Source of the DNA: Nostoc sp. ATCC 53789
Lineage (GTDB): Bacteria > Cyanobacteriota > Cyanobacteriia > Cyanobacteriales > Nostocaceae
Direction: 5' to 3'
Length of the DNA stretch: 64,000 nt
NCBI RefSeq assembly: GCF_009873495.1
Contig: NZ_CP046705.1
Location: 62,001 to 126,000, forward strand
Shown: piece after piece, positions 7,261 through 23,245 of the stretch
Position numbering within the stretch: the stretch's first letter is position 1
How the letters are laid out: each line of letters opens with the position of its first letter
Translations under genes and position numbers: made by a program
The notes under the pieces: model-generated
Seen by the model: the letters and a program-made list of their open reading frames with translations, nothing else
Told to the model about the DNA's origin: nothing
Database searches by the model: none

Positions 7261-8365
7261 TTTCACCACCTCCAACAGGACGACGTTGAGGTTTAGTATT
7301 ACCAGTAGTAGAGCGACGAGATTTAGTATTGGTTGTATTGGTTGTCTGGGACGTGCTATGTGTAGCTGACCCATGATGAGATTCTAAACCTAAAGCAATT
7401 CTCAAAGCCGAACTATCTGGGGTAAACTCAAGTTGCTTTTCTCCTAATCGTGTTTCGTTGAAGATAATCATGCATTGTTCATGAGAGTAAGCAGAAGATT
7501 TTAAATGCGACAGAGTGAGAGTTTTAGCTCCATCCAGTAACGCTGTTGCCAATGCTTGAGATAACCAATCTTTGAGAATACCAACACAACCGAAACTGCG
7601 TTCGTAGCAAAAATCCCAGTATTTAAGTAAATCAGGCTCTTCTTCAAAAGGTAAATGACGTTGAAAAGTTTGAACAACACCTCTGAAAGCTTTTAAATCT
7701 TCTTCATTCTCGACTTTGTATCGCTCAAAATGAATATCCAGGCTGCGCCTACACAACTGGGCACTCAAGTTACGAAGTATCAACAAGTCATAAGTACCTG
7801 CCAGTACGAATTTGACTTGAGTAAGGTTTGCTAGCGACTTAATACAGTCTGTCTGGTCGCGTAATTTTCGACCACTGGCAACTTTACTGAGATTTTGTGC
7901 TTCATCAAGGCAAAAAACTTTCAGACGACGATGTTTAAGAGCAGCTTCTAAGGATGTTTTCAACTTCAAATTAGTAATTCGACCATAACTAGGTAACTGA
8001 ATGCAAGGGTCTTGGAGAACGCCCAAAGCACGTAGATAAAAATCTTTCCAATCAAAATTACTAAATTCCGGGGTAGCAACTTCGATATTAGCAATAGGAA
8101 TAAAACCTTTATCTAGTTCCATTTCTTTGTGAAAAGAAGCTAGTAACCTTTGTGTGATGCGACGTAATAAGGTGGTTTTACCTACACCTGTTGGCCCAAA
8201 TAAAAAGATTAAAGAAAAGAATCCTGGGTTATCAATTGCATTTTTGAGTTTCTCTGCTGCTATTAATAATTTGGGGTGCGCCATTGTATATTGCTGGAAA
8301 TAAGAAATTCTGTCAGCAATAGGTAGAGTTAGTAATTCTTGAGGAAAGCTATAATCATGTGCCAT
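7250..8365 (-). CDS. tnsC: TnsC-type AAA+ ATPase of Tn-1, 371 aa
   Basis: This is the regulator ATPase that assembles on target DNA and activates the TnsAB transposase. Walker A is GPTGVGKT (residues 57-64) and Walker B is FCLDEAQ (about 151-157); sensor-like NLTQVKFVLAGTYDL follows. The start ATG overlaps the tnsAB stop (TAATG), so the two are translationally coupled. It is about 70 percent identical by eye to the interrupted TnsC of Tn-2. The C-terminal tail (TTNTTNTKSRRSTTGNTKPQ) is basic and low-complexity. The gene is intact. Confidence 0.92.
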   Translation of the reverse strand: MAHDYSFPQELLTLPIADRISYFQQYTMAHPKLLIAAEKLKNAIDNPGFFSLIFLFGPTGVGKTTLLRRITQRLLASFHKEMELDKGFIPIANIEVATPEFSNFDWKDFYLRALGVLQDPCIQLPSYGRITNLKLKTSLEAALKHRRLKVFCLDEAQNLSKVASGRKLRDQTDCIKSLANLTQVKFVLAGTYDLLILRNLSAQLCRRSLDIHFERYKVENEEDLKAFRGVVQTFQRHLPFEEEPDLLKYWDFCYERSFGCVGILKDWLSQALATALLDGAKTLTLSHLKSSAYSHEQCMIIFNETRLGEKQLEFTPDSSALRIALGLESHHGSATHSTSQTTNTTNTKSRRSTTGNTKPQRRPVGGGENVG

Positions 8366-10146
8366 TAGAACTCTCCATAATATTCAAGGGTTTCCGTGAT
8401 ATATGCAGTCAAATTGCTGATAGTTTCACAATTTTTACCTTCATTGGTCGAGTCATCTCCTAGACAATCATTATTTTCCTCTGCCGCAAATTCTGCCAAA
8501 TTTAACTTTGGTTCCGTGATCAAATTATTTTGAATAATTTTGTGAACTTTGTCATGTTCAGTATCGCGCAAGCGTTGTTTGAGGATAGCACCTTCTTGAG
8601 CAAATTTTGAGTTTAAAAATTCTACTAATTCCCGATCATTTATTGTTAACTTACGTCCGTAATTGCGTTGGCGCTGATTAAGTTCTGCACTCGCCAGCCG
8701 AATTTCTTTTTCGGAACGTCCTTGGAAGTATTGATAGTAAGAAGAAATGCATTTTACCCACTGTCCTTGTGCTAGTGCATAAGCAATTCCTGCATTCCAA
8801 GGGTCGTAACGAACCCACAGCATTGATTTTTCGATTTCTGGATCACGGAATACATCTGCCCAGTAATAAATATTGTGTATTTTGACACCCTTTCCTGGTT
8901 GAACTTTACGCTTTCGTTGATCTGGTGCTGGTAGAGTCAGAATCTGGAATAATTCGTCATATGCTACTCTTCGGTGTAAGCGACTTCCACCTGTTGCTAA
9001 TCCGGTGACAAAAGCATCGCACGGACTAGTACCTAATGCCGGATGCAATCGTTGGTCATAAACCGAATATGCCCATTCACAAAAAGCAGAGTACAGTTCT
9101 TCTAGTGTCCAAATTGCTAATCTTTCTGGACTGACAGATTTGGTGACTTTACGGTGAAGGCGTTTGATTTGGGTGTTACCTTGCAACTCATGAATAAACT
9201 GCGTGTTGGCAGTCCCAAATAGTCTTTCAACAATTGAACCAAACCGAGCATGTGCTGGCGGTCGATACTTCAGCGTGCAAGTATAAGATGCCAATAATTG
9301 TTCAAAATAGTGACTGTGAAACTCTTTTCCGTTATCGACAACAATATTTTGCGGAAACCGCCCAAATCTAGCAACGCATATGCGAATTACCATCATACAA
9401 TCACGGTAGCTTGGCTCATCGAAGGTCAGATAAACTGATAAAATTCTTCGACTATATGCATCAACCATGAAGGTTGCCCAAGGACGACCTAAATTCTGAT
9501 GAATTGAGTTATTTGTAGCAATATGACAATTAGTTAGAGATTCGAGTGAACTGACTAATTCAATGTCAATTTGAGTATGGTCAATGTGAACAATCTCAAA
9601 AGGGCGACTGCCATGCCGTGGAGTAGTTTGCTTTAATTCCCAATAAAATGGTTCTTCGGAAATAGCCGCTCGATTACCAAGACGTTTTCTGGTTTGATGA
9701 TGTCCGCTTCGCTGTTTGATAGCATGGCAAAATGTGATTCTCGATGGTGGTTTGAATGGGGGGTCATGGGTTTGGCAAGCTAAAACAAATGATTCATAAA
9801 CCCGTATTTTTCTGCGTTGTTTGGGTGTTTCATAATGCTCTTTGATAAAATCGAGCATAAATTCTTGGGTTTGAGAATCAATTTTTGGAGTCCGATTGCC
9901 TTTATTGTTATGTTTAGGCAGTAATCCCAGGTATCCCTGTCCATAAATGAGTAAAGCTTTTTGGTACTGAGTGCGCCAACGACGGATTGTGCTGCTTGGA
10001 TATGCTTTCAGAGCATCTTCTAAGTATGGTTGTATTAAATTGTAGCGACGGTTGGCTTCTATAATATCTTCACAAGTTGCGTGTTTAATAATTTCTGCTG
10101 CTGCTAAGTAGCTAGGCACAATTAAATATAAGACGCTCAAGGGCAT
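8365..10146 (-). CDS. tnsB: TnsB half of a split TnsAB transposase, Tn-1, 593 aa
   Basis: DDE (retroviral integrase fold) transposase that joins transposon 3' ends to target DNA. The integrase core is intact: FEIVHIDHTQIDIE and NIVVDNGKEFHSHYFEQLL give the two aspartates and SIVERLFGTANTQF the glutamate. In Tn-2 the homologous protein is one TnsA-TnsB fusion; here IS630 has cut it just before TnsB residues PSYLAAAEIIKHAT. The ATG at 10146 lies inside the IS, 5 nt after an AAGGGGG Shine-Dalgarno, and its frame enters tnsB after about 10 IS-encoded residues, so a separate TnsB could be made. Removing the IS with its 2-bp duplication restores the fused frame. It is followed directly by tnsC. Confidence 0.9.
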   Translation of the reverse strand: MPLSVLYLIVPSYLAAAEIIKHATCEDIIEANRRYNLIQPYLEDALKAYPSSTIRRWRTQYQKALLIYGQGYLGLLPKHNNKGNRTPKIDSQTQEFMLDFIKEHYETPKQRRKIRVYESFVLACQTHDPPFKPPSRITFCHAIKQRSGHHQTRKRLGNRAAISEEPFYWELKQTTPRHGSRPFEIVHIDHTQIDIELVSSLESLTNCHIATNNSIHQNLGRPWATFMVDAYSRRILSVYLTFDEPSYRDCMMVIRICVARFGRFPQNIVVDNGKEFHSHYFEQLLASYTCTLKYRPPAHARFGSIVERLFGTANTQFIHELQGNTQIKRLHRKVTKSVSPERLAIWTLEELYSAFCEWAYSVYDQRLHPALGTSPCDAFVTGLATGGSRLHRRVAYDELFQILTLPAPDQRKRKVQPGKGVKIHNIYYWADVFRDPEIEKSMLWVRYDPWNAGIAYALAQGQWVKCISSYYQYFQGRSEKEIRLASAELNQRQRNYGRKLTINDRELVEFLNSKFAQEGAILKQRLRDTEHDKVHKIIQNNLITEPKLNLAEFAAEENNDCLGDDSTNEGKNCETISNLTAYITETLEYYGEF

Positions 10147-11170
10147 ATTCCCCCTTTACGCTTCTAGCTTCCATGCCATCAATAATTGCCATAGCCAAAT
10201 CGTAGTTATTGTCAAACATTTGTCCAGCAATTTCATGAGTTTTTAGTTGATGCCACTCTTCCTCTATCCGATTCATTTCGGAACAATAAGGTGGTAAAAA
10301 GAAAACGAATAATCCTTTTTCCTGCCACTCAAGCCATTTTTGTTTTGCTTTCTTACTGGTATGTAAGGAACCATTATCGTGAACAATAACACTGATGCGA
10401 CCAGTTTCAACTAAAGTGTTTTGTGCCTTAGCTGCAACCCAATCCATAACCTCGATGTAGCGTTTTGTTTTGAACCCACCTTGAACCAAGGCATATTCAA
10501 AACTGACTTGGGGTTGCCATAAACCCAAAATACTAATGCGACCACCACGGCTACCAACTTGTGCCATTTGTTTTTGGCTACCGATACGACTGTAACTATA
10601 GCTAACGGGACTCCAACGACAACACCCAGACTCATCAAGATACTTAAGCTCGACATAACCCTCTACTGCCGCTTGCTTTAAGGTATCTAGGTCTGCTTGC
10701 TTAATTCGTCGTTTTTCTGGGTCTTGTTTTCTCTTATGAGTATGGCGGGTGCGTTTCCATTTCCACTTTTTTTTGAGCAAACGTCGCAAACGAGACGGAC
10801 TCAATTGCACATTTCTATCTTGAGCCAATTTTTCTGATAACTGCAAACTGTTATAAGTACGGGGCTCTACCTCTAAGCAATCCTCTAAATATGCTAAGTC
10901 TGCCTCAAGCCATTTGCACTTTGCTCCTCGCCCGGAAGTTTCCCACAGTCCTCCCAAACCCTTATTTTCCCAACGCCTCAGTGTTGCTCGTACCGTATGT
11001 TCGTGACACTCAAAAATTTTAGCTATCGCTGGTACATTCCATCCTTGGGCATTTAATCGAATTATGTGGGCACGCTCTCGTGTCCGTTGAGGAACTGTTG
11101 TCGCTGACCGTAACTCCAAAAGCGTCAAATCTTCTAAATCTGTTAATCTAACTCGCAATGGAGCAGACAT
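10112..11170 (-). CDS. IS630-family transposase, 352 aa
   Basis: Cut-and-paste DDE transposase. The N-terminus has paired helix-turn-helix regions (QGWNVPAIAKIFECHEHTVRATLRRW). The catalytic core has YLDESG, VIVHDNGSLHTS and LPPYCSEMNRIEEEWHQLK, giving D, D and E. The length is usual for the family. The frame runs through the left inverted repeat and uses a TAG stop 7 bp outside the element, supplied by tnsB sequence, so its last two codons are foreign. A homologous N-terminal fragment is fused to the RecD-like gene at 52112-54238. Confidence 0.92.
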   Translation of the reverse strand: MSAPLRVRLTDLEDLTLLELRSATTVPQRTRERAHIIRLNAQGWNVPAIAKIFECHEHTVRATLRRWENKGLGGLWETSGRGAKCKWLEADLAYLEDCLEVEPRTYNSLQLSEKLAQDRNVQLSPSRLRRLLKKKWKWKRTRHTHKRKQDPEKRRIKQADLDTLKQAAVEGYVELKYLDESGCCRWSPVSYSYSRIGSQKQMAQVGSRGGRISILGLWQPQVSFEYALVQGGFKTKRYIEVMDWVAAKAQNTLVETGRISVIVHDNGSLHTSKKAKQKWLEWQEKGLFVFFLPPYCSEMNRIEEEWHQLKTHEIAGQMFDNNYDLAMAIIDGMEARSVKGEYALERLIFNCA

Positions 11171-11216
11171 CTCGTAGAACCTATTTTTTAGACCTTCTCT
11201 ATCTTATATTTAATTG
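10119..11216 (-). mobile_element. IS630-family insertion sequence inside tnsAB of Tn-1
   Basis: The ends match as an inverted repeat: CAATTAAATATAAGA at 10119 and its complement ending at 11216 (1098 bp, normal for IS630). The flanking dinucleotides are TA at 11217-11218 and CA at 10117-10118, so the expected TA duplication has probably mutated on one side. Deleting the IS plus one dinucleotide rejoins tnsAB in frame (…SRWL|PSYLAAAEII…). Confidence 0.88.
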
Positions 11217-12257
11217 TAACCACCTACTTATTTTAATATTTGAGGTTTGTGTTGTCTTATCTCCCACAATTTTCCCTGTATCAATCAATGCTGTAAATGC
11301 TAAATTTGGTAGTTCTATAAGTTTGCCATCTGCACGTAATAATCCAGTAGTGGTCGTCCCAGTATTTACTATCTCCCATGACTCTCCATCCCAATAAATA
11401 TTAGTACCTACTGCTATTTGGAGTAATATTTGATTACTCGTTTGGGTTGTAGATTCTATTGAGTTAAGATGCTCATAAGATAAAGCAACATTTTGGTTAA
11501 TAAATACGAATACTGTTTCCGGTTGCGAAAGTTTAACTTTATTAAGTTCTACGTAAAGTTTATCTGTAGCAATTAACCAATAAAGTACATCAGGGTTTAT
11601 TTCTTCATTTTTTAACAGTTCTGTCAGGGTCATTCCTAGATGATTGTTTACTGTGTTTACAATCAAACTTTGCTCGGTTTCGTCTATAATTTCTGATGAG
11701 TATCCGAAATAATCTAACAGCCAAATTAGATTTTGTTGGAAGTTCCAATTAATTAGAGCATCTGACCATACATGAAAGTCCAAACCATGACCATGAGCGT
11801 ATTCTTCACCTGGGGGACAATGCCATTTGCCATCTGAGTTTTTGCAATAGCGATTTGGATTCAATTCGTTCAGCTTGTTAAGTTCAAGTTCTGTTTTGCA
11901 TTCCTCCCAAAAAGCTGAATCTGTCCGAATTATAAAGAAATCGGGTGTATACTGGTGTCTATTTTTTCGCCCGCTTTTGCTTTGATAGACTAATTCTATT
12001 GCTGGCGGTTGGTCGTAATATTCGAGTACGCATGGGTCATGTTCTAGTTCATAAATACGTGCTAATTCGTTATGATGGCTCTCGAATTGAATAGTACATC
12101 CCATTTTTCGACTGGGGTAACTGCCACAAACGTTTTTCCTTGCCCCTGTTACTCGACGAGATGGATTGCTGCTGCGAATCTCCTCAATGATTGCCTGCCC
12201 TGCTTGACTGAGGTCTTGTTGACGGCACCAGTTGTTAAACTCAAGGTTGTCAAGCAT
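11199..12257 (-). CDS. tnsA: TnsA endonuclease half of split TnsAB, Tn-1, 352 aa
   Basis: TnsA cuts the 5' ends of the transposon so that it moves by cut-and-paste. The restriction-enzyme-like core is visible: ELARIYELEHDPCVLEYYDQPPAIEL, YTPDFFII (Asp) and FWEECKTE (Glu-x-Lys). After the nuclease, a TnsB-type N-terminal segment (YWDGESWEIVNTGTTTTGLL) is present, followed by nine codons into the IS630 end before a stop. The protein is thus the N-terminal third of a TnsAB fusion. It begins at the ATG matching the start of the Tn-2 homologue. It may work as a separate TnsA; that is inference. Confidence 0.88.
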   Translation of the reverse strand: MLDNLEFNNWCRQQDLSQAGQAIIEEIRSSNPSRRVTGARKNVCGSYPSRKMGCTIQFESHHNELARIYELEHDPCVLEYYDQPPAIELVYQSKSGRKNRHQYTPDFFIIRTDSAFWEECKTELELNKLNELNPNRYCKNSDGKWHCPPGEEYAHGHGLDFHVWSDALINWNFQQNLIWLLDYFGYSSEIIDETEQSLIVNTVNNHLGMTLTELLKNEEINPDVLYWLIATDKLYVELNKVKLSQPETVFVFINQNVALSYEHLNSIESTTQTSNQILLQIAVGTNIYWDGESWEIVNTGTTTTGLLRADGKLIELPNLAFTALIDTGKIVGDKTTQTSNIKISRWLQLNIR

Positions 12258-12643: not shown

Positions 12644-13546
12644 TTACTGAATTTCGAGCAAGTTTAAACCCTCGACAGGAGATAAACTAAGCTTGTAACA
12701 CCATCTCAAAAACTTGTATAAAGTAGGCAATGTTCGTTTAGGGGTAACTTTTGTTTCTCTGATGAGGGGATTTGTGTGGAGTGAGGGAGTAGCAGCAAGC
12801 AGATTTCCAAGAGCTTGAGCAATCCACAAATCCCGATCAAATTTGCGCCCTTTGCTTCGGCTATGACTCGGTAGGTCAAGATTGCGCCCAAGCCAAGCAT
12901 CACACTCGTGACAGTAGCCGTTTAGTTTCTGAGGTTGGAAAAAAGGTTGGGTATGACCGTAGCACAAACAGTATATTTGTAAATAGCGTTGATGGTATGG
13001 GCAGACAGTTACAGGCTCTAACGCCCATAACAGAGGTTGATATACAGGGGTATTAGCATCACGCCAATCTTGGTAACAACCTGCACACCAACGCTGCTGT
13101 GTATGGAAGATGTGGTTAAATGAAAGTCGCCAAGTTTTCCAAGGCAACAAAGTTAAATAGCTGATATCTTTGCGACCAGTTAAGATTTCTAGTACATTAA
13201 CAACCTTAGAAACATGCTGTGTTTGGGAAAGCCAAAATTGGGCAGTTGGTTGCTGCAAAATGGCTAGTTCTTTTCGCAATCTAACTACAACTAGCTCGAT
13301 AGCATCTTTTTTGGATAATCCTGGAGGCTGCTCGTTAAGAAAAAATAAAGGAGCAATGTAATAGCGAATCAAGCCCCCAACTGTAATTCCATGTGCATCA
13401 GCCAAGCGAATTAAGTAGCTACTCAAGCTCTCGACAATTGCTGTGCCGACACCAACTGGTGGTAGAGAGAAAAGACGGCTACGCTCAGGTAGTATGGGTT
13501 GCTCTAATTCCCATGATTGATACAATTTCAAGTTCTCAACAGGCAT
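12644..13546 (-). CDS. tniQ: TniQ-family protein of Tn-2, 300 aa
   Basis: Homologue of the Tn-1 TniQ, with the same blocks: GTAIVESLSSYLIRLADAHG, FNHIFHTQQRWCAGCYQDWR, CPYHQRYLQIYCLC, CHECDAWLG and a C-terminal KFLRWCYKLSLSPVEGL. The Cys/His pairs should bind zinc; a CLCYGH sequence replaces CLYCGC, so one ligand has shifted. The start at 13546 (MPVENLKLYQSWEL) overlaps the tnsC stop in a GGTGGTGGACACAATG context, mirroring Tn-1. The gene is intact although its tnsC partner is interrupted. Confidence 0.88.
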   Translation of the reverse strand: MPVENLKLYQSWELEQPILPERSRLFSLPPVGVGTAIVESLSSYLIRLADAHGITVGGLIRYYIAPLFFLNEQPPGLSKKDAIELVVVRLRKELAILQQPTAQFWLSQTQHVSKVVNVLEILTGRKDISYLTLLPWKTWRLSFNHIFHTQQRWCAGCYQDWRDANTPVYQPLLWALEPVTVCPYHQRYLQIYCLCYGHTQPFFQPQKLNGYCHECDAWLGRNLDLPSHSRSKGRKFDRDLWIAQALGNLLAATPSLHTNPLIRETKVTPKRTLPTLYKFLRWCYKLSLSPVEGLNLLEIQ

Positions 13547-13999
13547 TGTGTCCACCACCGACAGGACGACGCTGTGGCAGAGGCTGACCGACCGCAGCGT
13601 GACGACGAGTTTGTTTAGCAGATGTCTGCAATGTTTTTGGAGTCACATCAGTTGCGACTTCTAATCCCAAAGCAGCCCGCAGAGCGTTGGTATCCCTACG
13701 GCTATTAAGTTGTTCCTCCCCATGAAGAGCTTCGTTAAGCAGAATTATGCACTGCTCAGTTTTGAGAGCATGTGACTCAAGATCGGAAAAAGTTAAAGTT
13801 TTGTCACCTTTGAGCAAAGCACTAAATAAAGCACGAGATAACCAATCTTTGAGAATGCCGATACAACCAACACAGCGCTCATAGCAGAAGTCCCAATGTT
13901 TGAGCAAATCAGGTTCAATTTGCAATGGTAAATGTCGTTGGAATGTTTGTACTATACCTTGAAAAGCTCTTAAATCTTCTGAATTGTCTGCTTTATAGC
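13536..13999 (-). pseudogene. tnsC: 3' part of tnsC of Tn-2, cut off by Tn-3
   Basis: The sequence from …KADNSEDLRAFQGIVQTFQRHLP to the stop matches the C-terminal 150 residues of the Tn-1 TnsC. It joins the 5' part (18229-18871) exactly once Tn-3 and one TATAGC copy are removed: the junction then reads DIHLERY|KADNSED, in frame, giving a 368-aa protein versus 371 in Tn-1. As it stands, an open frame starts 58 nt inside Tn-3, but this fragment lacks Walker A and B and cannot be an active ATPase. Confidence 0.9.
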
Positions 14000-14170
14000 T
14001 GTTGCGGCTCGCAAACATAAACGCTCCGGCTTGCAAACAAGAAAATTCTTGGCTCACATTAGTTGCAAATCAGATTGGACTTCGGCTCACATTAATTGCA
14101 AACAGACTCATTATTATTTGCAATGGGCTTGCAATCATCCGACTTGGCTCACATTAATTGCAAATAAGCC
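14000..14170. repeat. Tn-3 left inverted repeat with transposase sites
   Basis: Contains the terminal TGTTGCGGCTCGCAAAC block, then three copies of GGCTCACATTARTTGCAAA (about 14052, 14085 and 14144) and a divergent ATTATTTGCAATGGG copy. The right repeat at 18052-18222 mirrors it. Confidence 0.88.
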
Positions 14171-14235
14171 GAATGCCTGCTCAGCAACTGTTGGATAGAG
14201 CAATATAAAATCCTTTGGGCGTTGCTATCTCTCCT

Positions 14236-15168
14236 TTATCCCTTGAGTAATGCAAGCTTGTCTTTCACTTGCTGTCGGCTACTTTGAGTGTACCGAACCG
14301 TGGTTTGAATAGCTGGAGTTCCCTTTTTGGTGATATGACCAAGATAATAAGCAACCTCCTCCAAAGTCCATCCTGCTTCACGCGCTCGGTGAGCGAAATC
14401 ATGACGCAGATCATGAAAAGTTACATCATGGATGAGTTCCCACTCAGAAACAGTTGCTTGTGCTTTAATGTTTTTCCACCAGCGATGAATGCCGGCTTCG
14501 GTCAGCCTCTCATTGCGCTGAGAGGTAAAAGTGTAATCACTCTCAGTATCTCGCCCGCCGTGATGAATATATTCATACATTGGTTTTCGGACAGCGTTAA
14601 TTAGATCAATATCTCGCGCCTTACCACCCTTGTAACCAACGTGCAACCAGCCAACTTTGGGGCCAATATGGGTATGCTCTATCCGTAGCCAGGAAACATC
14701 ACTCACGCGACAACCAGCCCAGTACCCCAATGCAAACACAGCCATGCTACGTGGATGACCATCTTTTTCGATCAGGTTGCGTAAAATATAACGTTGGTCA
14801 GGAGTCAATTGTCTGGGGGCTAAAAGTGGCTGGGCTGGAATGTTTAATCCTCTGGTGGGGTTGCGACGTAAAATTCCCTTCTCCTCAATGAGCCAACGGG
14901 CAAAACCACTGACAGCAGATTTAACCCGTGCTTGGTGAGCAATGCTGTAACCTGACGTATCTAGATAGGCGAGATAAATTTCCATCGCCGTTTTGGTCAA
15001 CTGTTCGGGTTGAAAATCTCCTCCACTCCCAGGATGTTCTACAATCCAAAGAAGAAGCTGCCTAATGATACGCATATAGGCATCAATAGTGCTATGCGTT
15101 TTACCTTTTAGGAACGCCTCATACTCTATGAGTAGTGCTTCGGCTTCAGATAAGTAAAGTGTATCCAC
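14236..15168 (-). CDS. Tyrosine recombinase of Tn-3, 310 aa
   Basis: A tyrosine-type site-specific recombinase with all catalytic residues: Arg154 (GCRVSDVSW), Lys183 (GGKARD), His252 and Arg255 (FHDLRHDF), His278 (YLGHITK) and Tyr293 (VRYTQ). An N-terminal SAM-like core-binding domain covers residues 5-110. It lies inside Tn-3 and is divergent from the transposase. In replicative transposons such as Tn4430 a tyrosine recombinase resolves cointegrates; by position this protein could do the same here, since Tn-3 lacks a second-strand nuclease. That role is inferred. Confidence 0.9.
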   Translation of the reverse strand: MDTLYLSEAEALLIEYEAFLKGKTHSTIDAYMRIIRQLLLWIVEHPGSGGDFQPEQLTKTAMEIYLAYLDTSGYSIAHQARVKSAVSGFARWLIEEKGILRRNPTRGLNIPAQPLLAPRQLTPDQRYILRNLIEKDGHPRSMAVFALGYWAGCRVSDVSWLRIEHTHIGPKVGWLHVGYKGGKARDIDLINAVRKPMYEYIHHGGRDTESDYTFTSQRNERLTEAGIHRWWKNIKAQATVSEWELIHDVTFHDLRHDFAHRAREAGWTLEEVAYYLGHITKKGTPAIQTTVRYTQSSRQQVKDKLALLKG

Positions 15169-15188
15169 AGCACCAAACTTCCTTCAAA

Positions 15189-15294
15189 AATTTCTGTGGT
15201 GAGTTTTCAAGCCTCATTTGAAGCTAATCTATCTCAAATTGTTATACTTTTTCACCTAACTGGCAACAGAATGTAATTTCTGTGGTCAGTTTTC
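15189..15294. promoter_or_regulatory. Paired direct repeat between recombinase and transposase (candidate resolution/control site)
   Basis: AATTTCTGTGGTGAGTTTTC at 15189-15208 and AATTTCTGTGGTCAGTTTTC at 15275-15294 are 19/20 identical and directly repeated 86 bp apart. They lie in the only non-coding gap between the divergent genes, where a recombinase binding (res-like) site or shared operator is expected. Confidence 0.6.
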
Positions 15295-15346
15295 TGCTAC
15301 AAACTTAAAGATAAGGACAGTACATGAGGCGAACATACAGGCGAGC

Positions 15347-17008
15347 ATGATCCGCAAGAAAATTCCAGCAGAAGCTTTAACCAACTTGCGTCATCGACTT
15401 GATATGTTACCAAGCCGTTGCCAAGAACGTCGGCAACTCATGGAAGAAACAGCTTCATTGTATGGAGTGTCTATTGATACTCTATATCGTGCTTTGCGTA
15501 ACTCATCACGCCCCAAATCGATCAACCGTTCAGATAGCGGGACACCTCGAAAGCTATCACAGGCGGAAATGGAACTTTACTGTGAAGTCATTGCAGCAAC
15601 GAAAATCCGCACTTGCAACAAGAAAGGGCGGCACGTCTCCACTGCACGGGCGATTGAACTTTTAGAAGATTTCGGGATGAACACCCCACAAGGTTTTATC
15701 AAACCACCCAAGGGGTTGTTAACTAAAGCCACTGTCAACCGTTATTTGAAAACATGGGGCTACGACCATCTCACAATGACTCGTCAACCGCCTGCGGTAC
15801 GTTTTCAAGCAACTCACAGTAATGAATGTTGGCATTTCGACCTTAGCCCGTCCGATTTAAAACACGTAAAGCAGCCCTTATGGGTGGAAACGGGTAAAGG
15901 GAATCCGCTATTGATGCTTTATAGTGTCGTTGATGACCGCAGTGGTGTGTGTTACCAGGAATACCATTGTGTTTATGGAGAGGATGTAACAGCAGCGTTG
16001 CGCTTCCTATTTAATGCAATGACGGCTTCCACCTCGGATGGATGCCCCTTCCAGGGAATTCCTGAGATGATCTATACGGACAACGGGCCAATTGCCAAAA
16101 GCCATGTATTTCAAAATGTGATGGACTGCCTGGGAATCAAGCTTGCTAGCCATCTGCCTGCGGGTAAAGATGGGAGAAGGGTAACGGCTCGCTCCAAAGG
16201 AAAAGTGGAAAGACCGTTCCGGACAGTCAAAGAAGCCCATGAGACTCTGTATCATTTTCACGAACCAGAAAACGAAGTTGAGGCTAACCTATGGCTACGG
16301 CAGTATCTGCTAAATTATAACGACCAAAAACACCGTACAGAAGCGCACTCACGCTTAGAGGATTGGTTGCGAAATCTGCCAAAAAGCGGAATCAGGCAGA
16401 TGTGTAGTTGGGAACGATTTTGTACTTTTGCCCGCGAACCGCAACGAAGGAAAGTGGATGCAACAGCCAGAGTATCAGTTGAGGGCGTGGCTTATGAAGT
16501 AAACCCAGACTTAGCAGGCGAAACTGTGGTGCTGTGGTGGGGTCTTTTTGATAACGAATTATATGTAGAGAAAGGCGACCAACGCTATGGCCCATTTTAC
16601 CCAGTTGATGGGCCTATCCCCTTGCATCGCTATCGCAAACACAAGAAAACTAAAACCGAAGAACGGGCAGACCGGATTGCAGATTTAGCTCTTAAGCTGG
16701 GCTTGCCACGAACTGCCTTGGATAAAAACGCGGATCTGCAATTTTTGGTGGATAAGTACAAGGAAATTGAGCCAACTGTCACACCTTTTAAAGACCCAGA
16801 CCCGTTCCAAGAATTTACTTATCCCACTGTATTATTCGCTAAACTGGCGATTTCAGATTATCTCGCTAAACCTTTGGCGAAATTATCCACTGAACAAATT
16901 GCCTTTATTGATGGGCTGCTAGCTGAGACTTTGAATAAAAAAGTGATTATTGAACGAGTACGGCAGTATTTCCACTCGAACAAAGGAGGGCAGCAAAATG
17001 CTCACTGA
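15347..17008 (+). CDS. DDE transposase of Tn-3 (TnsB/TniA/MuA-like), 553 aa
   Basis: Retroviral-integrase-fold transposase. An N-terminal helix-turn-helix region (MEETASLYGVSIDTLYRALR) is followed by a second DNA-binding region, then the catalytic core with Asp165 (WHFDLSPSD), Asp245 (IYTDNGP) and Glu288 (SKGKVERPF), and a Mu-transposase C-terminal beta barrel (RVSVEGVAYEVNPDLAGE). The size matches TniA and Tn552-type transposases (about 480-560 aa). The 3' end overlaps the ATPase gene by 11 bp. Sequence motifs differ from both TnsAB proteins in the window, so this is a separate lineage. Confidence 0.9.
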   Translation: MIRKKIPAEALTNLRHRLDMLPSRCQERRQLMEETASLYGVSIDTLYRALRNSSRPKSINRSDSGTPRKLSQAEMELYCEVIAATKIRTCNKKGRHVSTARAIELLEDFGMNTPQGFIKPPKGLLTKATVNRYLKTWGYDHLTMTRQPPAVRFQATHSNECWHFDLSPSDLKHVKQPLWVETGKGNPLLMLYSVVDDRSGVCYQEYHCVYGEDVTAALRFLFNAMTASTSDGCPFQGIPEMIYTDNGPIAKSHVFQNVMDCLGIKLASHLPAGKDGRRVTARSKGKVERPFRTVKEAHETLYHFHEPENEVEANLWLRQYLLNYNDQKHRTEAHSRLEDWLRNLPKSGIRQMCSWERFCTFAREPQRRKVDATARVSVEGVAYEVNPDLAGETVVLWWGLFDNELYVEKGDQRYGPFYPVDGPIPLHRYRKHKKTKTEERADRIADLALKLGLPRTALDKNADLQFLVDKYKEIEPTVTPFKDPDPFQEFTYPTVLFAKLAISDYLAKPLAKLSTEQIAFIDGLLAETLNKKVIIERVRQYFHSNKGGQQNAH

Positions 17009-17969
17009 AGTAATGGAACACTTTCGTTTGGTCAAGGAATTTCCCAAGGCTGGTTACTACGAAACAGACCATCAAAAGCAAATGTTCAAAGACATTAAAG
17101 CTGCCATCCATTCAGGGAAACTGATTGCCATAACGGGAATTATTGGGTGTGGCAAGACGACTACTTTACGACGCTTGTTTGATGTTTTGGAGAAAGAAGG
17201 TAAGATTCTAGTCTCGAAGTCCCTTTCTGTAGATAAAGAACGGGCGACACTGCCAACACTTATTGCTGCTTTATTCTACGATTTATCCACAGATAAGGAA
17301 ATTAAAATCCCTAAAGACGGTGAAAAACGGGAACGGGAACTACGCGACCTGATTAGAAAAGGTAAAAAGTCAGTAGCACTGTTTGTTGATGAGGCTCATG
17401 ACCTTCATTACAGTACCCTGACGGGACTCAAACGTTTAATCGAAGTAGTTGAAGACGGTGGTGGCACACTTTCAGTGGTGCTGGCTGGTCATCCCAAACT
17501 GAAAAATGATCTGCGCCGTCCGACTATGGAAGAAATCGGTTATCGAGCAACAGTCTTCTCCTTGGAAGGCATTGTTGGCAATCAGCGAGAATATATTGAA
17601 TGGCTAGTATCTGAATGCACTATCTCTGATACTCCAATTGGTGAAATATTGGAGGCGGAAGCTATTGAATTACTTGCCACGCGGCTCTTGACACCACTAC
17701 AAATTGAGCAACATTTGACACTAGCTTTGGAGGCGGCGTACCGAGTCGCGGTCAAACCTGTGACTACGGTGATTGTGGAGTCAGTTCTGTCAAAGCAAAT
17801 TGACGATTTGGAACCCACTCTCACAAGGCATGGCTATGACGTGAGGGGCTTGGCGGAACAGTTCAATGCCAAGCCGGCTGAAATTAAATCGCTGTTTCGC
17901 GGACAACTTGATCCCACTCGTGCGCGTGAATTACAAGAGCAAATGCTAGCTGCGGGGTTGCCACTTTAA
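16998..17969 (+). CDS. AAA+ ATPase of Tn-3 (TniB/MuB/ExeA-like), 323 aa
   Basis: ATPase partner of the transposase, likely the target-DNA-binding factor. The start is the ATG at 16998 because an AAAGGAGGG Shine-Dalgarno lies 7 nt upstream; the frame is open further 5' but overlaps the transposase. Walker A is GIIGCGKT (47-54) and Walker B ALFVDEAHD (127-135). The layout resembles ExeA-type AAA_22 ATPases and TniB rather than the TnsC of Tn-1 and Tn-2. No TniQ-type gene follows; the right inverted repeat starts 83 bp later. Confidence 0.9.
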   Translation: MLTEVMEHFRLVKEFPKAGYYETDHQKQMFKDIKAAIHSGKLIAITGIIGCGKTTTLRRLFDVLEKEGKILVSKSLSVDKERATLPTLIAALFYDLSTDKEIKIPKDGEKRERELRDLIRKGKKSVALFVDEAHDLHYSTLTGLKRLIEVVEDGGGTLSVVLAGHPKLKNDLRRPTMEEIGYRATVFSLEGIVGNQREYIEWLVSECTISDTPIGEILEAEAIELLATRLLTPLQIEQHLTLALEAAYRVAVKPVTTVIVESVLSKQIDDLEPTLTRHGYDVRGLAEQFNAKPAEIKSLFRGQLDPTRARELQEQMLAAGLPL

Positions 17970-18051
17970 TTATTGGTCATATTTAGTACATTAAATCTTT
18001 TTCATCTCGATACTCTTGCAGACAAGCATACCCACCGCTTTATCTGCATCT

Positions 18052-18222
18052 GGCTTATTTGCAATTAATTTGAGCCAAGTCGGATGATTGCAAGCCCGTT
18101 GCAAATAATAATGAGTCTGTTTGCAATTAATGTGAGCCGAAGTGTAATCTTATTTGCAATTAATGTGAGCCAACAATTTTCTTGTTTGCAAGCCGGAGCG
18201 TTTATGTTTGCGAGCCGCAACA
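18052..18222. repeat. Tn-3 right inverted repeat
   Basis: Complement of the left repeat with seven mismatches over 171 bp; contains the GGCTCACATTAATTGCAAA copies and the terminal CCGCAACA. It contributes the aberrant last 53 codons of the truncated tnsC frame. Confidence 0.88.
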
Positions 18223-18228
18223 TATAGC

Positions 18229-18871
18229 GTTCCAAATGAATATCTTGGCTGCGTCGGCATAGTTGAGCGCTGAGATTACGAAGTATTAATAATTCATAAG
18301 TACCTGCAAGTATAAACTGTACGCGAGTAATATTAGCTAGCGATTTAATACAGTCAGTTTGGTCGCGTAATTTCCGCCCACTAGCAACCTTGCTCAAGTT
18401 TTGTGCCTCATCAATATAAAAAACTTTGAGTCTGCGGTGACGTAATGCACTTTCAACAGACATCCTCAACTTTAAATTGGTCATTCTCTGAGAAATTGGT
18501 AATTCAATACATGGGTCTTTTAATACAGTTAAAGCACGTAAATAAAAATCTTTCCAATCAAAATTGCTGAACTCAGGTGTAACTGTTTCGACACCAGCAA
18601 TCGGGATAAAACCTTTATCTCGTTCCATATCTGGTCGCGTTGCTTCTAGCAACTTTTGAGTCATACGACGTAGTAAGGTAGTTTTACCAACACCTGTTGG
18701 CCCGAACAAAAACATGAGTGAAGTTGCAGCAGGCTCTTCAACAGTGAGCATGAGCTTTTGCGAGGCTGACAGCAATTTCGGATGCGCCATTGTGTAATTT
18801 TTAAAGTAAGCAATCCTTTCAGGAATAGATTGCTCAAGTAGTTGCTTAGGAAAGCCTTCTTCGTCACTCAT
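18229..18871 (-). pseudogene. tnsC: 5' part of tnsC of Tn-2, interrupted by Tn-3
   Basis: Encodes the first 214 residues of TnsC with Walker A GPTGVGKT and Walker B YIDEAQ intact. The frame then enters Tn-3 and ends at 18065 after about 54 foreign residues, so a 268-aa truncated ATPase core could be made. The missing C-terminal 150 residues normally carry the arginine-finger side and TniQ/TnsAB contacts. The start overlaps the tnsAB stop (TGATG), as in Tn-1. Confidence 0.9.
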
Positions 18872-21645
18872 CAGAACTCTCCATAGTATTCTAGGGATAC
18901 TAATTTAGTATCTTTTATGTCCATTAATTGGTCGGTTTCTAAATAATTATTTTCCGATTCAAGCAAATTAACTTCAGATGAATTATTCTCAAAATCTGAG
19001 TGAAGCTGATCAGAAACACATCTAACTTTAGACGGGTCTTCAATCAGTTGTAAAACGCTTTTATTCTCAGCATTTTTTAGACGCTGTAATAGGAATTTTT
19101 CTTCTGTTAACTCAACAGAGTTAAGGAACTGAACTAACTCTCGGTCTGAGTTAATAAAATTATGCCCTTGTAGTCGTTTGCGAGCTAACAGTTCTGCACT
19201 AACTAATTGAATTTCCTTTTCTGAGCGTCCTTTAAAGTATTGGTAGTACTTTGAGATACACTCTACCCATTGTCCCTGAACTAAGGCATAAGCAATTCCA
19301 GCATCCCAGGGGTCATATCTAACATCAACTGATGTGAATTCAATTTCCGGATTGCGGAATTCATTATTCCAGTAGTAAATGTTATGAATTTTCACTCCCT
19401 GACCTGGTTGGACTTTGCGTTTACTTTGTTGGGGCGCGGGTAAAGTGAGAATACGAAAGATGTTGTCATATTCTACTCGTCTGTGCAGTCTGCTACCACC
19501 AAATGCAATTCCGACATTGAAGGCATCACTAGGTGTTTGTCCTAGTGCTGGAGGTTCGCGTTGGTCATATACCTCGTAACCCCACGATAAAAGAGCCGAA
19601 TATAAGTCAATTAGCGTCCACACTGCCTGTTTTGAGGGACTAACAGATTTAGTCACACATCGGTGTTTTTTTGTAAGTTGGGTATTGCCAAGCAATTCAT
19701 AAATCAGTTGGGTATTGGCAGTTCCAAATAGTCTTTCCACGACTGAGCCGAATCGAGGATAAGCAGGTGGGCGATGTTTTTTGGTACAAGCATAAGTTGC
19801 CAAAAGTTGCTCAAAATAATGGCTGTGGAACTCGGCACCATTATCTACAACTATTGTTTGTGGAAATCTCTTGAACCTCATCACGCAAATGCGGATGACC
19901 ATCAATATTGAACGGTAACTTGGCTCTTCAAAGGTGAGATATATCGCTAATAATCGTCGGCTATAGGCATCTACCATGAAGGTGGCCCACGGACGACCTA
20001 AATTTTTATACTTAGTATCGCCAATATCTAAATGGCAATTGCTCAAGTTTTGCAATGAACTTACTAATTCAATGTCAAGTTGAGTATGGTCAATGTGAAC
20101 TATTTCAAAAGGACGTTCTCCGTGAGTTGGAGTTGTTAACTCTAACTGCCAATCGAAGTCTAATTTTTGTATTGCTGCTCGTCTTCCCTGACGTTTTAAT
20201 GTCTGCTCATAACCCGAACGACGTTGAATTTCCAAACAAAATCGATTAAAACTAGGTGGGTTAATTTTCGGAGATTGGGATTCACAGGCAATTCGGAAAG
20301 ATTCATAGACCCTGAGTCGCCCTCGTTGTTTAAGGGTTTCGTAGTTCTCACTAATAAATGTAGTCATGAATTCCTGTACCCGCAGGTCTAGTCTTGGCTT
20401 GTAATTACCTTTGTTAGTGTTTTTGGGCAATAATCCTACAAAACCATTGCCATAAATTTCAGTTGCTTGTTGATAAGCTTTACGCCAGCGCCGAATTGTG
20501 CGGGTAATTCCCACTGGAGGATGGCTAGAAAGGTAAGGCGATAATTGAGTGTAGCGGTGATTAGCTTCTACAATATCTTGCGGTTTCGCGTGACGCAGTA
20601 ATTCCTCTAGCTGCTGTTGTTTTGCTGTACTTTGAATAGGTGCAACAGTTATTTTACCGTCTTGGATCAGTTGAAAAACTGTAGCATTTGGCAGTTCTAC
20701 AAACTTCCCATCTGTCCTGAGTAATCCTGTTGTTGTTGTTCCTGTGTTTACAACATCCCAGGATTCACCATCCCAAGACAGAGATTTACCAACCGCAATT
20801 TCAACGGATTGAAGGTTGCTAGGTATACTACTTGGCTTGACGGATGTTATTCGTTCGTAAGCGAGTGCTATTTCCCGGTTGGCAAAAACTTTTACTTGTT
20901 CAGGTTCGGATAATCTAGCTGTATTTAAGTTGACATAGATTTGCTCAGTTGCAATTAAAGTATAAATGTCATCTAAGCTGGCTTTTTGGTATGCGATTTT
21001 AATCAAATCCGCTAACAGTATGCCTGGATTTGTTTTTACTATCGCTAATACTTTTCTGATTACTTGATTATCTACTGCAACTGGTTCTAGATTCAAGTAA
21101 TCTTCCAACCAGATAAAGTTCTGCTGAAATATCCAGCAAATTAAAGCGCTCGACCACACCCGGAACTCAAGACCAAATTTCTGTGCATAATTTTCTCCTG
21201 GTGGACATCGCCAAATACCATTTTCGTCTTGTTGATAGCGGTTTGGGCTTGCAGCAGAAAGTTTTACTAATTCTTGTTCTGATTTACATTCTTCCCAAAA
21301 CGCTGAGTTATTACTGATAATAAAGAAATCAGGTGTGTATAGATGGCGGTTGTTTCTACCACTTAAAGATTGATAACAAAGTTCAATAGCTGGTGGTTGG
21401 TCGTAATATTCCAGAACATCTGGGTTATGTTCAAGTTCGTATATCCTAGCTAATTCGTGCCGATGAGACTCAAAACTTATTGTTACCCCCATTTTTCTGC
21501 TAGGGTAGAAACCAGATACATTTCCTCTGCCACCTTGGACTCGCCGTGATGGTTTTTCTGCACGGATTTGTCTGATTACCTCACTTGCCGATTGACTTAA
21601 GTTGAGGCTTTTACACCAGTCGCCAAATTCTTGAGAGTTCATCAT
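18871..21645 (-). CDS. tnsAB: TnsA-TnsB fusion transposase of Tn-2, 924 aa
   Basis: One protein carries both cutting activities. The TnsA part has YTPDFFII (Asp106) and WEECKSE (Glu119-x-Lys121). The TnsB part has an N-terminal segment (WDGESWDVVNTGTTTTGLL), a helix-turn-helix region (AKPQDIVEANHRYTQL) and a DDE core with Asp519 (VHIDHTQLD), Asp601 (VVDNGAEF) and Glu637 (SVVERLFG), with the usual 35-residue spacing. The start at 21645 (MMNSQEFGDWCK) matches the Tn-1 homologue and has GAGG 11 nt upstream; the frame is open to 21780 but that part is not conserved. Fused TnsAB proteins are known from cyanobacterial type I-B2 CRISPR transposons; here no cas genes accompany it. Confidence 0.93.
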   Translation of the reverse strand: MMNSQEFGDWCKSLNLSQSASEVIRQIRAEKPSRRVQGGRGNVSGFYPSRKMGVTISFESHRHELARIYELEHNPDVLEYYDQPPAIELCYQSLSGRNNRHLYTPDFFIISNNSAFWEECKSEQELVKLSAASPNRYQQDENGIWRCPPGENYAQKFGLEFRVWSSALICWIFQQNFIWLEDYLNLEPVAVDNQVIRKVLAIVKTNPGILLADLIKIAYQKASLDDIYTLIATEQIYVNLNTARLSEPEQVKVFANREIALAYERITSVKPSSIPSNLQSVEIAVGKSLSWDGESWDVVNTGTTTTGLLRTDGKFVELPNATVFQLIQDGKITVAPIQSTAKQQQLEELLRHAKPQDIVEANHRYTQLSPYLSSHPPVGITRTIRRWRKAYQQATEIYGNGFVGLLPKNTNKGNYKPRLDLRVQEFMTTFISENYETLKQRGRLRVYESFRIACESQSPKINPPSFNRFCLEIQRRSGYEQTLKRQGRRAAIQKLDFDWQLELTTPTHGERPFEIVHIDHTQLDIELVSSLQNLSNCHLDIGDTKYKNLGRPWATFMVDAYSRRLLAIYLTFEEPSYRSILMVIRICVMRFKRFPQTIVVDNGAEFHSHYFEQLLATYACTKKHRPPAYPRFGSVVERLFGTANTQLIYELLGNTQLTKKHRCVTKSVSPSKQAVWTLIDLYSALLSWGYEVYDQREPPALGQTPSDAFNVGIAFGGSRLHRRVEYDNIFRILTLPAPQQSKRKVQPGQGVKIHNIYYWNNEFRNPEIEFTSVDVRYDPWDAGIAYALVQGQWVECISKYYQYFKGRSEKEIQLVSAELLARKRLQGHNFINSDRELVQFLNSVELTEEKFLLQRLKNAENKSVLQLIEDPSKVRCVSDQLHSDFENNSSEVNLLESENNYLETDQLMDIKDTKLVSLEYYGEF

Positions 21646-21779
21646 GAATTCGACCTCAACTTTCAAATGAGTCAGTTGCTTAATTCTGATTCTAAATTTA
21701 TCTAAACACAGGTGGTGATTTGCTAATATATATTGATTTAAAACTTTAAGATTGCTTATGTAAGTACAACTAGTGGACA

Positions 21780-21957
21780 ACTTTCAGCTGATTTTTCAAC
21801 TTGGTGACAATTTATGCTTTGATTTTTGACTTTGAGACAATTTTTGGCTGTATTCGTCTTATGGCATCAGAAATTTTCCTACGATAGTATCAGTGTTTCG
21901 CCTTCGATGCGGACAACTTATGCCTTGTCTATTGGACATATTGTGCTTAAAGTTACA
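21780..21957. repeat. Tn-2 right end with transposase sites
   Basis: Several GACAACTTATGC-like copies: GGACAACTTTCAG (about 21774), GACAATTTATGC (about 21805), GACAATTTTTGGC (about 21836), GGACAACTTATGCC (about 21911) and the terminal repeat ending AAGTTACA at 21957. Confidence 0.7.
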
Positions 21958-22557: not shown

Positions 22558-22822
22558 TACTTGCGACCTGCGACTTACGACTTACGACTTGCGACTTGCG
22601 ACTTGCGACTTGCGACTTGCGACTTGCGACTTACGACTTACGACTTGCGACTTGCGACTTGCGACTTGCGACTTGCGACTTGCGACTTGCGACTTACGAC
22701 TTGCGACTTGCGACTTGCGACTTGCGACTTGCGACTTGCGACTTGCGACTTACGACTTGCGACTTGCGACTTGCGACTTGCGACTTGCGACTTACGACTT
22801 GCGACTTGCGACTTGCGACTTC
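22558..22822 (+). repeat. Heptamer tandem array, about 38 ACTTGCG/ACTTACG units
   Basis: A 265-bp run of 7-bp units, with ACTTGCG and the variant ACTTACG interspersed and one ACCTGCG near the start. Seven is not a multiple of three and no stop arises, so all three plus-strand frames are open and code a repeating RLATCDL peptide. This is the short tandemly repeated repetitive type known from heterocystous cyanobacteria. It is not a CRISPR array: there are no spacers. Confidence 0.95.
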
Positions 22823-22831
22823 CTTAAAACT

Positions 22832-23245
22832 ATGGCTCGTGATTTATTCCACAATATTGTGAGGTCTGCACTGGAAAAAGATGGTTGGTTAGTTACAGAT
22901 GACCCACTAAATATTCGGTGTGGTGGAGTTGATGTTCAGATTGATTTAGGTGCAGAACACCTAGTTGCTGCCCAAAAAGCTGGAGAAAAAATAGCAGTTG
23001 AAATCAAAAATTTTGTTAGTGCATCGAAGATTTCAGAATTTCACATGGCACTAGGACAATTTATTAATTATCGGACTGCATTACGTGCAGAAGAACCTTC
23101 GAGAAATTTATATTTAGCTGTACCATTGGTCACTTATAATGATTTTTTTAATTTGCCTTTTATTCAAACTGTAGTCAACGAAAACAAATTGAAGTTAATT
23201 ATTTATAACCTTGAAACTGAGGAAATAGATCAATGGATAAGTTAA
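22832..23245 (+). CDS. xisH: XisH-family protein, 137 aa
   Basis: Matches XisH, one of the factors needed with XisF for excision of the fdxN element in Anabaena; the fold is of the PD-(D/E)xK nuclease type (VDVQIDLGAEHL…KIAVEIKNF fits the motif). The start is the ATG at 22832 (MARDLFHN), the usual N-terminus. The heptamer array just upstream is open in the same frame back to 22589, so a 218-aa form is formally possible; no clear Shine-Dalgarno marks either start. It overlaps xisI by 13 bp. Many cyanobacteria carry XisH/XisI pairs away from any fdxN element, so the name does not prove an excision role. Confidence 0.88.
   Translation: MARDLFHNIVRSALEKDGWLVTDDPLNIRCGGVDVQIDLGAEHLVAAQKAGEKIAVEIKNFVSASKISEFHMALGQFINYRTALRAEEPSRNLYLAVPLVTYNDFFNLPFIQTVVNENKLKLIIYNLETEEIDQWIS

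Follow-up and report, generated by a model that had tools for sequence, protein, structure and literature searches.

Classical IS481 elements consist of one short transposase gene, with no ATPase gene. Tn552 carries a transposase, an ATPase and a serine resolvase, without TniQ, and Mu/B3-like phages have, to our knowledge, no resolvase. Most IS481 elements are described as generating 6-bp target site duplications (TSDs) (PMC10045372), and 5 bp is the length given for Tn7 (PMC11406308). For Tn7-like elements that lack TnsA, Tn5053/Tn402 among them, a DDE transposase and an AAA+ protein are reported alongside a serine or a tyrosine resolvase, and transposition is predicted to be replicative (PMC8649781). 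Serine and tyrosine resolvases have also been described as alternatives within the Tn3 family, where the TnpI elements Tn4430 and Tn5401 carry a tyrosine resolvase and an irs site made of an inverted core and direct repeats upstream of the gene (PMC7157771). Here, we report a transposon of Nostoc sp. ATCC 53789, located at positions 14000 to 18222 of the 64,000-nucleotide stretch of DNA that was analysed (the window).

The original prediction took this element for a distinct family, but one relative is already named: the IS481-like ISAzs36 (IS481 family, Azospirillum B510). Its transposase is 62% identical, and the genes for transposase and AAA ATPase follow each other in the same order. The TGT...ACA ends and 6-bp TSD of the IS481 family are present. 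Shared with the ISAzs36 group are a transposase gene overlapping an AAA gene, complex inverted repeats and a 6-bp NNTANN target; the group's recombinase, however, is a serine enzyme encoded upstream and collinear, as at the Azospirillum locus, whereas that of the Nostoc element is a tyrosine recombinase encoded divergently. (The end search did not find the ends of the Azospirillum locus.) Transposable (Mu/B3-like) Pseudomonas phages share A- and B-type profiles with the element but are phage genomes rather than transposons. Tn552, likened by description and not by sequence, has the same layout without TniQ and differs by its serine resolvase. Tn5053/Tn402-like elements have TniQ, whereas our element has no TniQ/TnsD target selector, and its TSD is 6 bp with a central TA. 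The transposase of the Tn3-family TnpI elements is unrelated, and no Tn3-type TnpA is present; an irs-like arrangement does lie upstream of the recombinase gene, an inverted core with one clear direct repeat, not two (TnpI of Tn4430 is likened by description). Since Tn7-like elements without TnsA are already reported to use either resolvase type (PMC8649781), the tyrosine form found here is a variant, not a separate kind. In the texts available, mainly open literature and without ISfinder or TnPedia, we found no description of the transposase/AAA+/recombinase group or of its tyrosine variant, which is no proof of absence.

Anatomy and copies of the element

Repeat and flank analysis of the window gave an element of 4,223 bp, an intact bacterial transposon that was apparently active recently. 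It carries no cargo genes. Its features are as follows.

13536 to 14057, minus strand: host ORF containing the 3' portion of the split tnsC, reaching into the element end
13994 to 13999: left copy of the TSD TATAGC, a direct repeat at both flanks
14000 to 14176: left complex inverted repeat, beginning TGTTGCGG, with seven site-like repeats
14236 to 15168, minus strand: tyrosine recombinase, 310 aa (PF00589, 2e-19)
15192 to 15205, minus strand: accessory half-site (direct repeat) belonging to the probable res/irs, at 86 bp from the first arm of the core
15258 to 15291, minus strand: inverted core of the probable res/irs, with 14-bp arms and a 6-bp spacer (15272 to 15277)
15347 to 17008, plus strand: DDE transposase, 553 aa, IS481-like and Mu-like (profile and sequence matches)
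16998 to 17969, plus strand: AAA+ ATPase, 323 aa, MuB/TnsC-like (AAA_22, 6e-13)
18046 to 18222: right complex inverted repeat, with seven site-like repeats
18065 to 18871, minus strand: host ORF containing the 5' portion of the split tnsC, reaching into the element end
18223 to 18228: right copy of the TSD TATAGC, a direct repeat at both flanks

The inverted repeats are 177 nt long and 95% complementary, with termini TGTTGCGG and CCGCAACA and TATAGC on either side; ungapped extension gives 171 nt at 96%, in agreement with the predicted length of about 171 bp. Four sites per end had been expected, but we counted seven in each, at the same seven positions in both ends. Flanks joined with one TSD form a single open tnsC frame of 379 codons from stop to stop. 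This frame, the TATAGC repeat and five more copies confirm the exact boundaries and the restoration of tnsC by excision that had been predicted. The host gene is assigned to tnsC of a Tn7-like element because its 5' part matches TniB/AAA models; the interrupted element also includes a TnsA-TnsB fusion (18871 to 21780) and a TniQ gene (12644 to 13558), the latter outside the transposon. Within the transposon, the only ORFs of at least 80 aa are the three genes, ORFs overlapping them and the two host ORFs running into the ends. This survey found no TniQ, as first proposed, and ORFs and profiles together upheld the trio of DDE transposase, AAA+ ATPase and tyrosine recombinase. A promoter scan of the intergenic region returned one weak site (0.4 expected). 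Elsewhere in the window (8365 to 12257), a second TnsB-like/TnsA-like pair is apparently split by an ORF (10112 to 11170) resembling an IS630-type transposase (names assigned by eye), and short tandem repeats with ATCDLRL-like units in several overlapping ORFs lie at 22561 to 22862.

Six full copies with 100% identical transposases are present in the host genome; the five outside the window match the window copy in everything but the number of 33-bp units. Three copies are identical at 4,223 bp, one is 4,256 bp and two are 4,289 bp long. In the longer ones (L027, L028 and L029, on contigs C7, C8 and C13), the right end contains one or two additional 33-bp units, and every such unit brings one end-site. 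The serine-type element L153 likewise has an extra unit in one end. A 6-bp TSD flanks five of the six copies: TATAGC, AATAGT, TCTATT, GGTAGG and, for the C13 copy, ATTAAG, the last presupposing circular closure of C13 across its contig ends, which matching bases suggest. Flanks of the C8 copy (L028, 7775 to 12030) are unequal (CTTAAG and AGTAAC); its site is a frame built of near-identical tandem repeats. All six copies lie on contigs of 35 to 325 kb (C3, C6, C7, C8 and C13) and none on the 7.34-Mb contig C1. Relatives in genomes G671 and G713, by contrast, sit on the largest contig. A paralogue of 65% identity that has a serine recombinase also occurs in the host genome, as does a fragment on C1.

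Relatives of the transposase and the target rule

The best NCBIfam model for the transposase was IS481 (2.8e-20; 73 bits, below the cut-off of 224), which also matched all 13 transposase relatives compared. Among phage profiles, phrog_310 "transposase" (1e-33) and phrog_296 "DNA transposition protein" (7e-18), which we take to be the Mu-type A and B families, matched the transposase/ATPase pair, bearing out the Mu-like pair of the original prediction; as the two sets of profiles come from different libraries, their E values are not strictly comparable. Phage relatives were Pseudomonas phage transposases (24 to 28% identity over 68 to 88% among the 20 of 36 matches listed). Judged by such matches, the Mu-type and IS481 labels each appear to hold in part. 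A structural model of the ATPase (pLDDT 77) matched ORC/Cdc6 best and, further down, MuB (8xvc, rank 7) and TnsC (8fcu and 7plh, ranks 13 and 20); the transposase model (pLDDT 48) was too poor for structural comparison. A sequence search of the PDB with the transposase gave weak matches alone, mostly to retroviral integrases. Viral contigs yielded no relative with the recombinase or ATPase query and two with the transposase alignment, and PADLOC returned four weak matches, all to the ATPase.

Plasmid records gave 806 transposase matches, 610 with at least 80% cover; 745 were below 60% identity, 542 of these in Salmonella or Klebsiella. More distant kin occur on many enterobacterial and pseudomonad plasmids. 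Among nine relatives read with their neighbourhoods, an annotated gene for a recombinase/invertase lies upstream of and collinear with the transposase gene in eight; at that position the ninth (Methylobacter) encodes a serine recombinase that is not annotated. Of 217 genomes of the host's family, 38 match the transposase at 1e-80. The loci read for 24 of these (L119 to L142) comprise 15 with a type A serine recombinase, seven with type B (one a fragment), one with a tyrosine recombinase and one with none, at which another insertion lies upstream. When 12 loci were re-read, 10 showed a serine recombinase frame and two (L141 and L142) were disrupted. Wherever the upstream gene was readable (some fragment loci and the two disrupted ones were not, and are left out of the tally), it encodes a serine recombinase in every relative except the tyrosine-type ones, which were found solely in cyanobacteria, in several genera.

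Both ends were found for 20 elements, the window's included; 18 have complex inverted repeats of 135 to 255 bp, L147 has 38 bp and the decayed L150 has 59 bp. For other loci, L063 to L066 and L145 to L146 among them, the end search found none. At L149 (G515), the inverted repeat extends outward past the expected end, which lacks its terminal TGT, and we found no TSD. At L181 (G671:C3:47646-48109), end-like sequences face each other within 464 bp, resembling a non-autonomous miniature derivative.

Across all loci, TA occupies the centre of the last six bases in 117 of 118 distinct 14-base outer flanks, a set gathered by end motifs that includes related copies and both ends of single insertions, so that the independent events number fewer than 118. 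Merging targets by 6-bp sequence and strand leaves central TA in 64 of 65. The lone exception is the left flank of L157; without L157 and L092, the count is 110 of 110, with no other preference of near strength. Perfect 6-bp TSDs flank 13 of the 20 elements, and the NNTANN target is common to the tyrosine-type element and its serine-type relatives. For TnRErm46, a named IS481-family transposon, NCTAGN repeats and the end TGTTGCGG are reported (PMC6794481).

The tyrosine recombinase and its probable site

The recombinase has the residues R-K-H-R-H-Y, presumably the catalytic motif of tyrosine recombinases, in conserved alignment columns. A scan of genome contigs gave 37 loci with 34 clear relatives. 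Three adjoin this transposase/ATPase pair, all in cyanobacteria; 10 directly adjoin a Tn3-family transposase (Rubrobacter, Chloroflexota and Ammoniphilus); the remaining 21 have neither in the stretch examined, in which some contigs end early (at one, L079, there is a Tn3 match at a distance of 3 kb). On plasmids, two of six loci have a Tn3 transposase beside the recombinase gene (one broken) and four do not. Order-wide, four of 388 genomes hold a relative at 1e-40, and a fifth genome came from the family-wide transposase search. In a tree of 37 of the 43 loci (six short ones omitted), the six recombinases linked to transposons group together in a single clade (100/99), in which L092 has a long branch.

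In the sense of the recombinase gene, the site reads AAAACTGACCACAGAA-ATTACA-TTCTGTTGCCAGTTAG, followed by AAAACTCACCACAGAAAT 86 bp after the first arm. This inverted core with its 6-bp spacer and direct repeat is probably a res/irs site. The exact layout (core arms, 6-bp spacer, direct repeat at exactly +86) lies beside 15 of the 35 recombinase genes tested, the other eight of the 43 loci having matches that began after residue 30. Of these 15, five belong to tyrosine-type transposons; the other ten (two of them identical) come from Rubrobacter, Bacillota and further contexts. In Paenibacillus larvae the site is the same and its arms are perfect; Bacillus and Rubrobacter carry versions of their own, spaced at an equal distance. 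The other 20 genes, that of the decayed L092 included, show longer distances in some cases and nothing convincing in others. The window site scores 3 mismatches of 28, a value reached by none of 400 shuffles with free distance (best, 6) and none of 2,000 with the distance fixed at 86 (best, 9), all with the 6-bp spacer alone. No second direct repeat was found in the site, and ten serine-type loci had no match to the half-site closer than 3 to 4 mismatches of 16. Because it lies between the divergent recombinase and transposase genes, the site may also regulate both, as is reported for TnpI of Tn5401 (PMC7157771).

Proposed cointegrates and the likely origin of the resolution cassette

We consider it likely (probability, roughly 0.8) that the element moves by replicative Mu/IS481-like transposition and that the tyrosine recombinase, part of a cassette that took over from a serine one, resolves its cointegrates. 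The scheme, in which we infer the catalytic roles, the replication and resolution steps and the direction of replacement, is as follows. The transposase would bind the site arrays in both ends of about 171 bp, and the AAA+ protein would load on target DNA and recruit and activate it. Strand transfer would be staggered by 6 bp around the central TA. As no second-strand nuclease is encoded in the element, replication should yield a cointegrate. The recombinase would then recombine the two copies of its site, which lies between the divergently oriented recombinase and transposase genes, and each of the separated replicons would keep one element copy. Its proposed role as cointegrate resolver is a probable one. 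Recombinase and site would form a cassette related to cassettes in Tn3-family transposons and on Bacillota plasmids, taking the place of the relatives' serine recombinase; the spread of serine types suggests that the replacement ran from serine to tyrosine.

The element is ordinary in its transposase group and unusual in its resolution cassette. We lean, by a narrow balance, to a broader picture in which it belongs to a little-described but widespread Mu-like group within or next to IS481 (transposase, AAA+ protein and resolvase, complex ends of about 165 bp, near-absolute NNTANN target) that moves by cointegrates and treats resolution as an exchangeable cassette. The serine cassettes would be of types A, B and others, to which cyanobacteria would add a tyrosine recombinase acquired, along with its res site, from a Tn3-like transposon or plasmid. 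An entire resolution cassette, the enzyme with its site of about 100 bp, would here clearly have crossed between unrelated transposon classes. Serine-type relatives at 84 to 86% transposase identity would serve as a comparison set for what a transposon needs from its resolvase, and the Mu-like transposase and AAA+ partner, with a central-TA target and no TniQ, offer a simple testable system for DNA choice by an ATPase and transposase.

That the recombinase is instead an integrase moving or targeting the element is very improbable: it is broadly akin to XerC/XerD/integrase profiles, but the flanks obey the 6-bp rule of the serine-type relatives, the recombinase-specific site is internal and beside its own gene, as described for Tn3-family TnpI elements (PMC7157771), and 10 of 34 genome relatives adjoin Tn3 transposases. 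We find it unlikely, though less so, that movement is mainly cut-and-paste or through a circle (copy-out), with the recombinase resolving only plasmid or transposon dimers. IS481 transposases are described as thought to act by copy-paste (PMC6794481), and the four plasmid relatives of the recombinase without an adjacent transposase suggest dimer resolution. The perfect TSDs at five of six host copies are compatible with such movement, being predicted alike by cut-and-paste and by resolved replication. Against it stand the Mu-like protein pair, a site-specific recombinase in nearly all intact readable relatives, and cointegrate-shaped flanks in a serine-type relative. Plasmid pANACY.03 of Anabaena cylindrica PCC 7122 carries two serine-type copies in direct orientation whose flanks are crossed (AGTAGT-Tn-CCTATA ... 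CCTATA-Tn-AGTAGT), and a ParA gene lies within the 32 kb that they enclose; this arrangement of a serine-type relative could be the structure of a cointegrate or, equally, two simple insertions that recombined. On the chromosome, two direct copies separated by 52 kb both have TATACT as the outer flank but different inner flanks (ACTAGA and GATACG), with a third, inverted copy between them. Plain direct TSDs occur at one of seven copies in the A. cylindrica genome, and elsewhere at three of five (G713), two of four with both ends found (G340) and two of three (G042).

The original prediction saw a distinct transposon family defined by the gene trio. Tyrosine-type elements do occur in several cyanobacterial genera with recombinases of one clade, but that claim is now hardly credible: the transposase is 84 to 86% identical to those of many serine-type elements, which have the same ATPase, ends and target. 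Close relatives lacking the recombinase had been named as counting against a family; the closest ones indeed have no tyrosine recombinase, but they carry a serine recombinase instead. The ends of about 171 bp and the missing TniQ were dropped as grounds for a new family, both being common to the relatives; complex ends, shared with serine-recombinase elements, are not peculiar to this one. In transposase trees (45 rows in one; 37 in the other, once near-duplicate, broken or long rows, nine of 46, had been removed), the tyrosine-type rows are nested among serine-type rows and do not form one clade, which contradicts the distinct family as a statement on transposase descent. Given a single recombinase clade, one capture is the simplest story, perhaps with one later exchange between elements. 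A single origin for the window, LEGE 11386 and G515 elements was not rejected (p-AU, 0.47); with the Scytonematopsis element (L092) added, it was (p-AU, 0.036).
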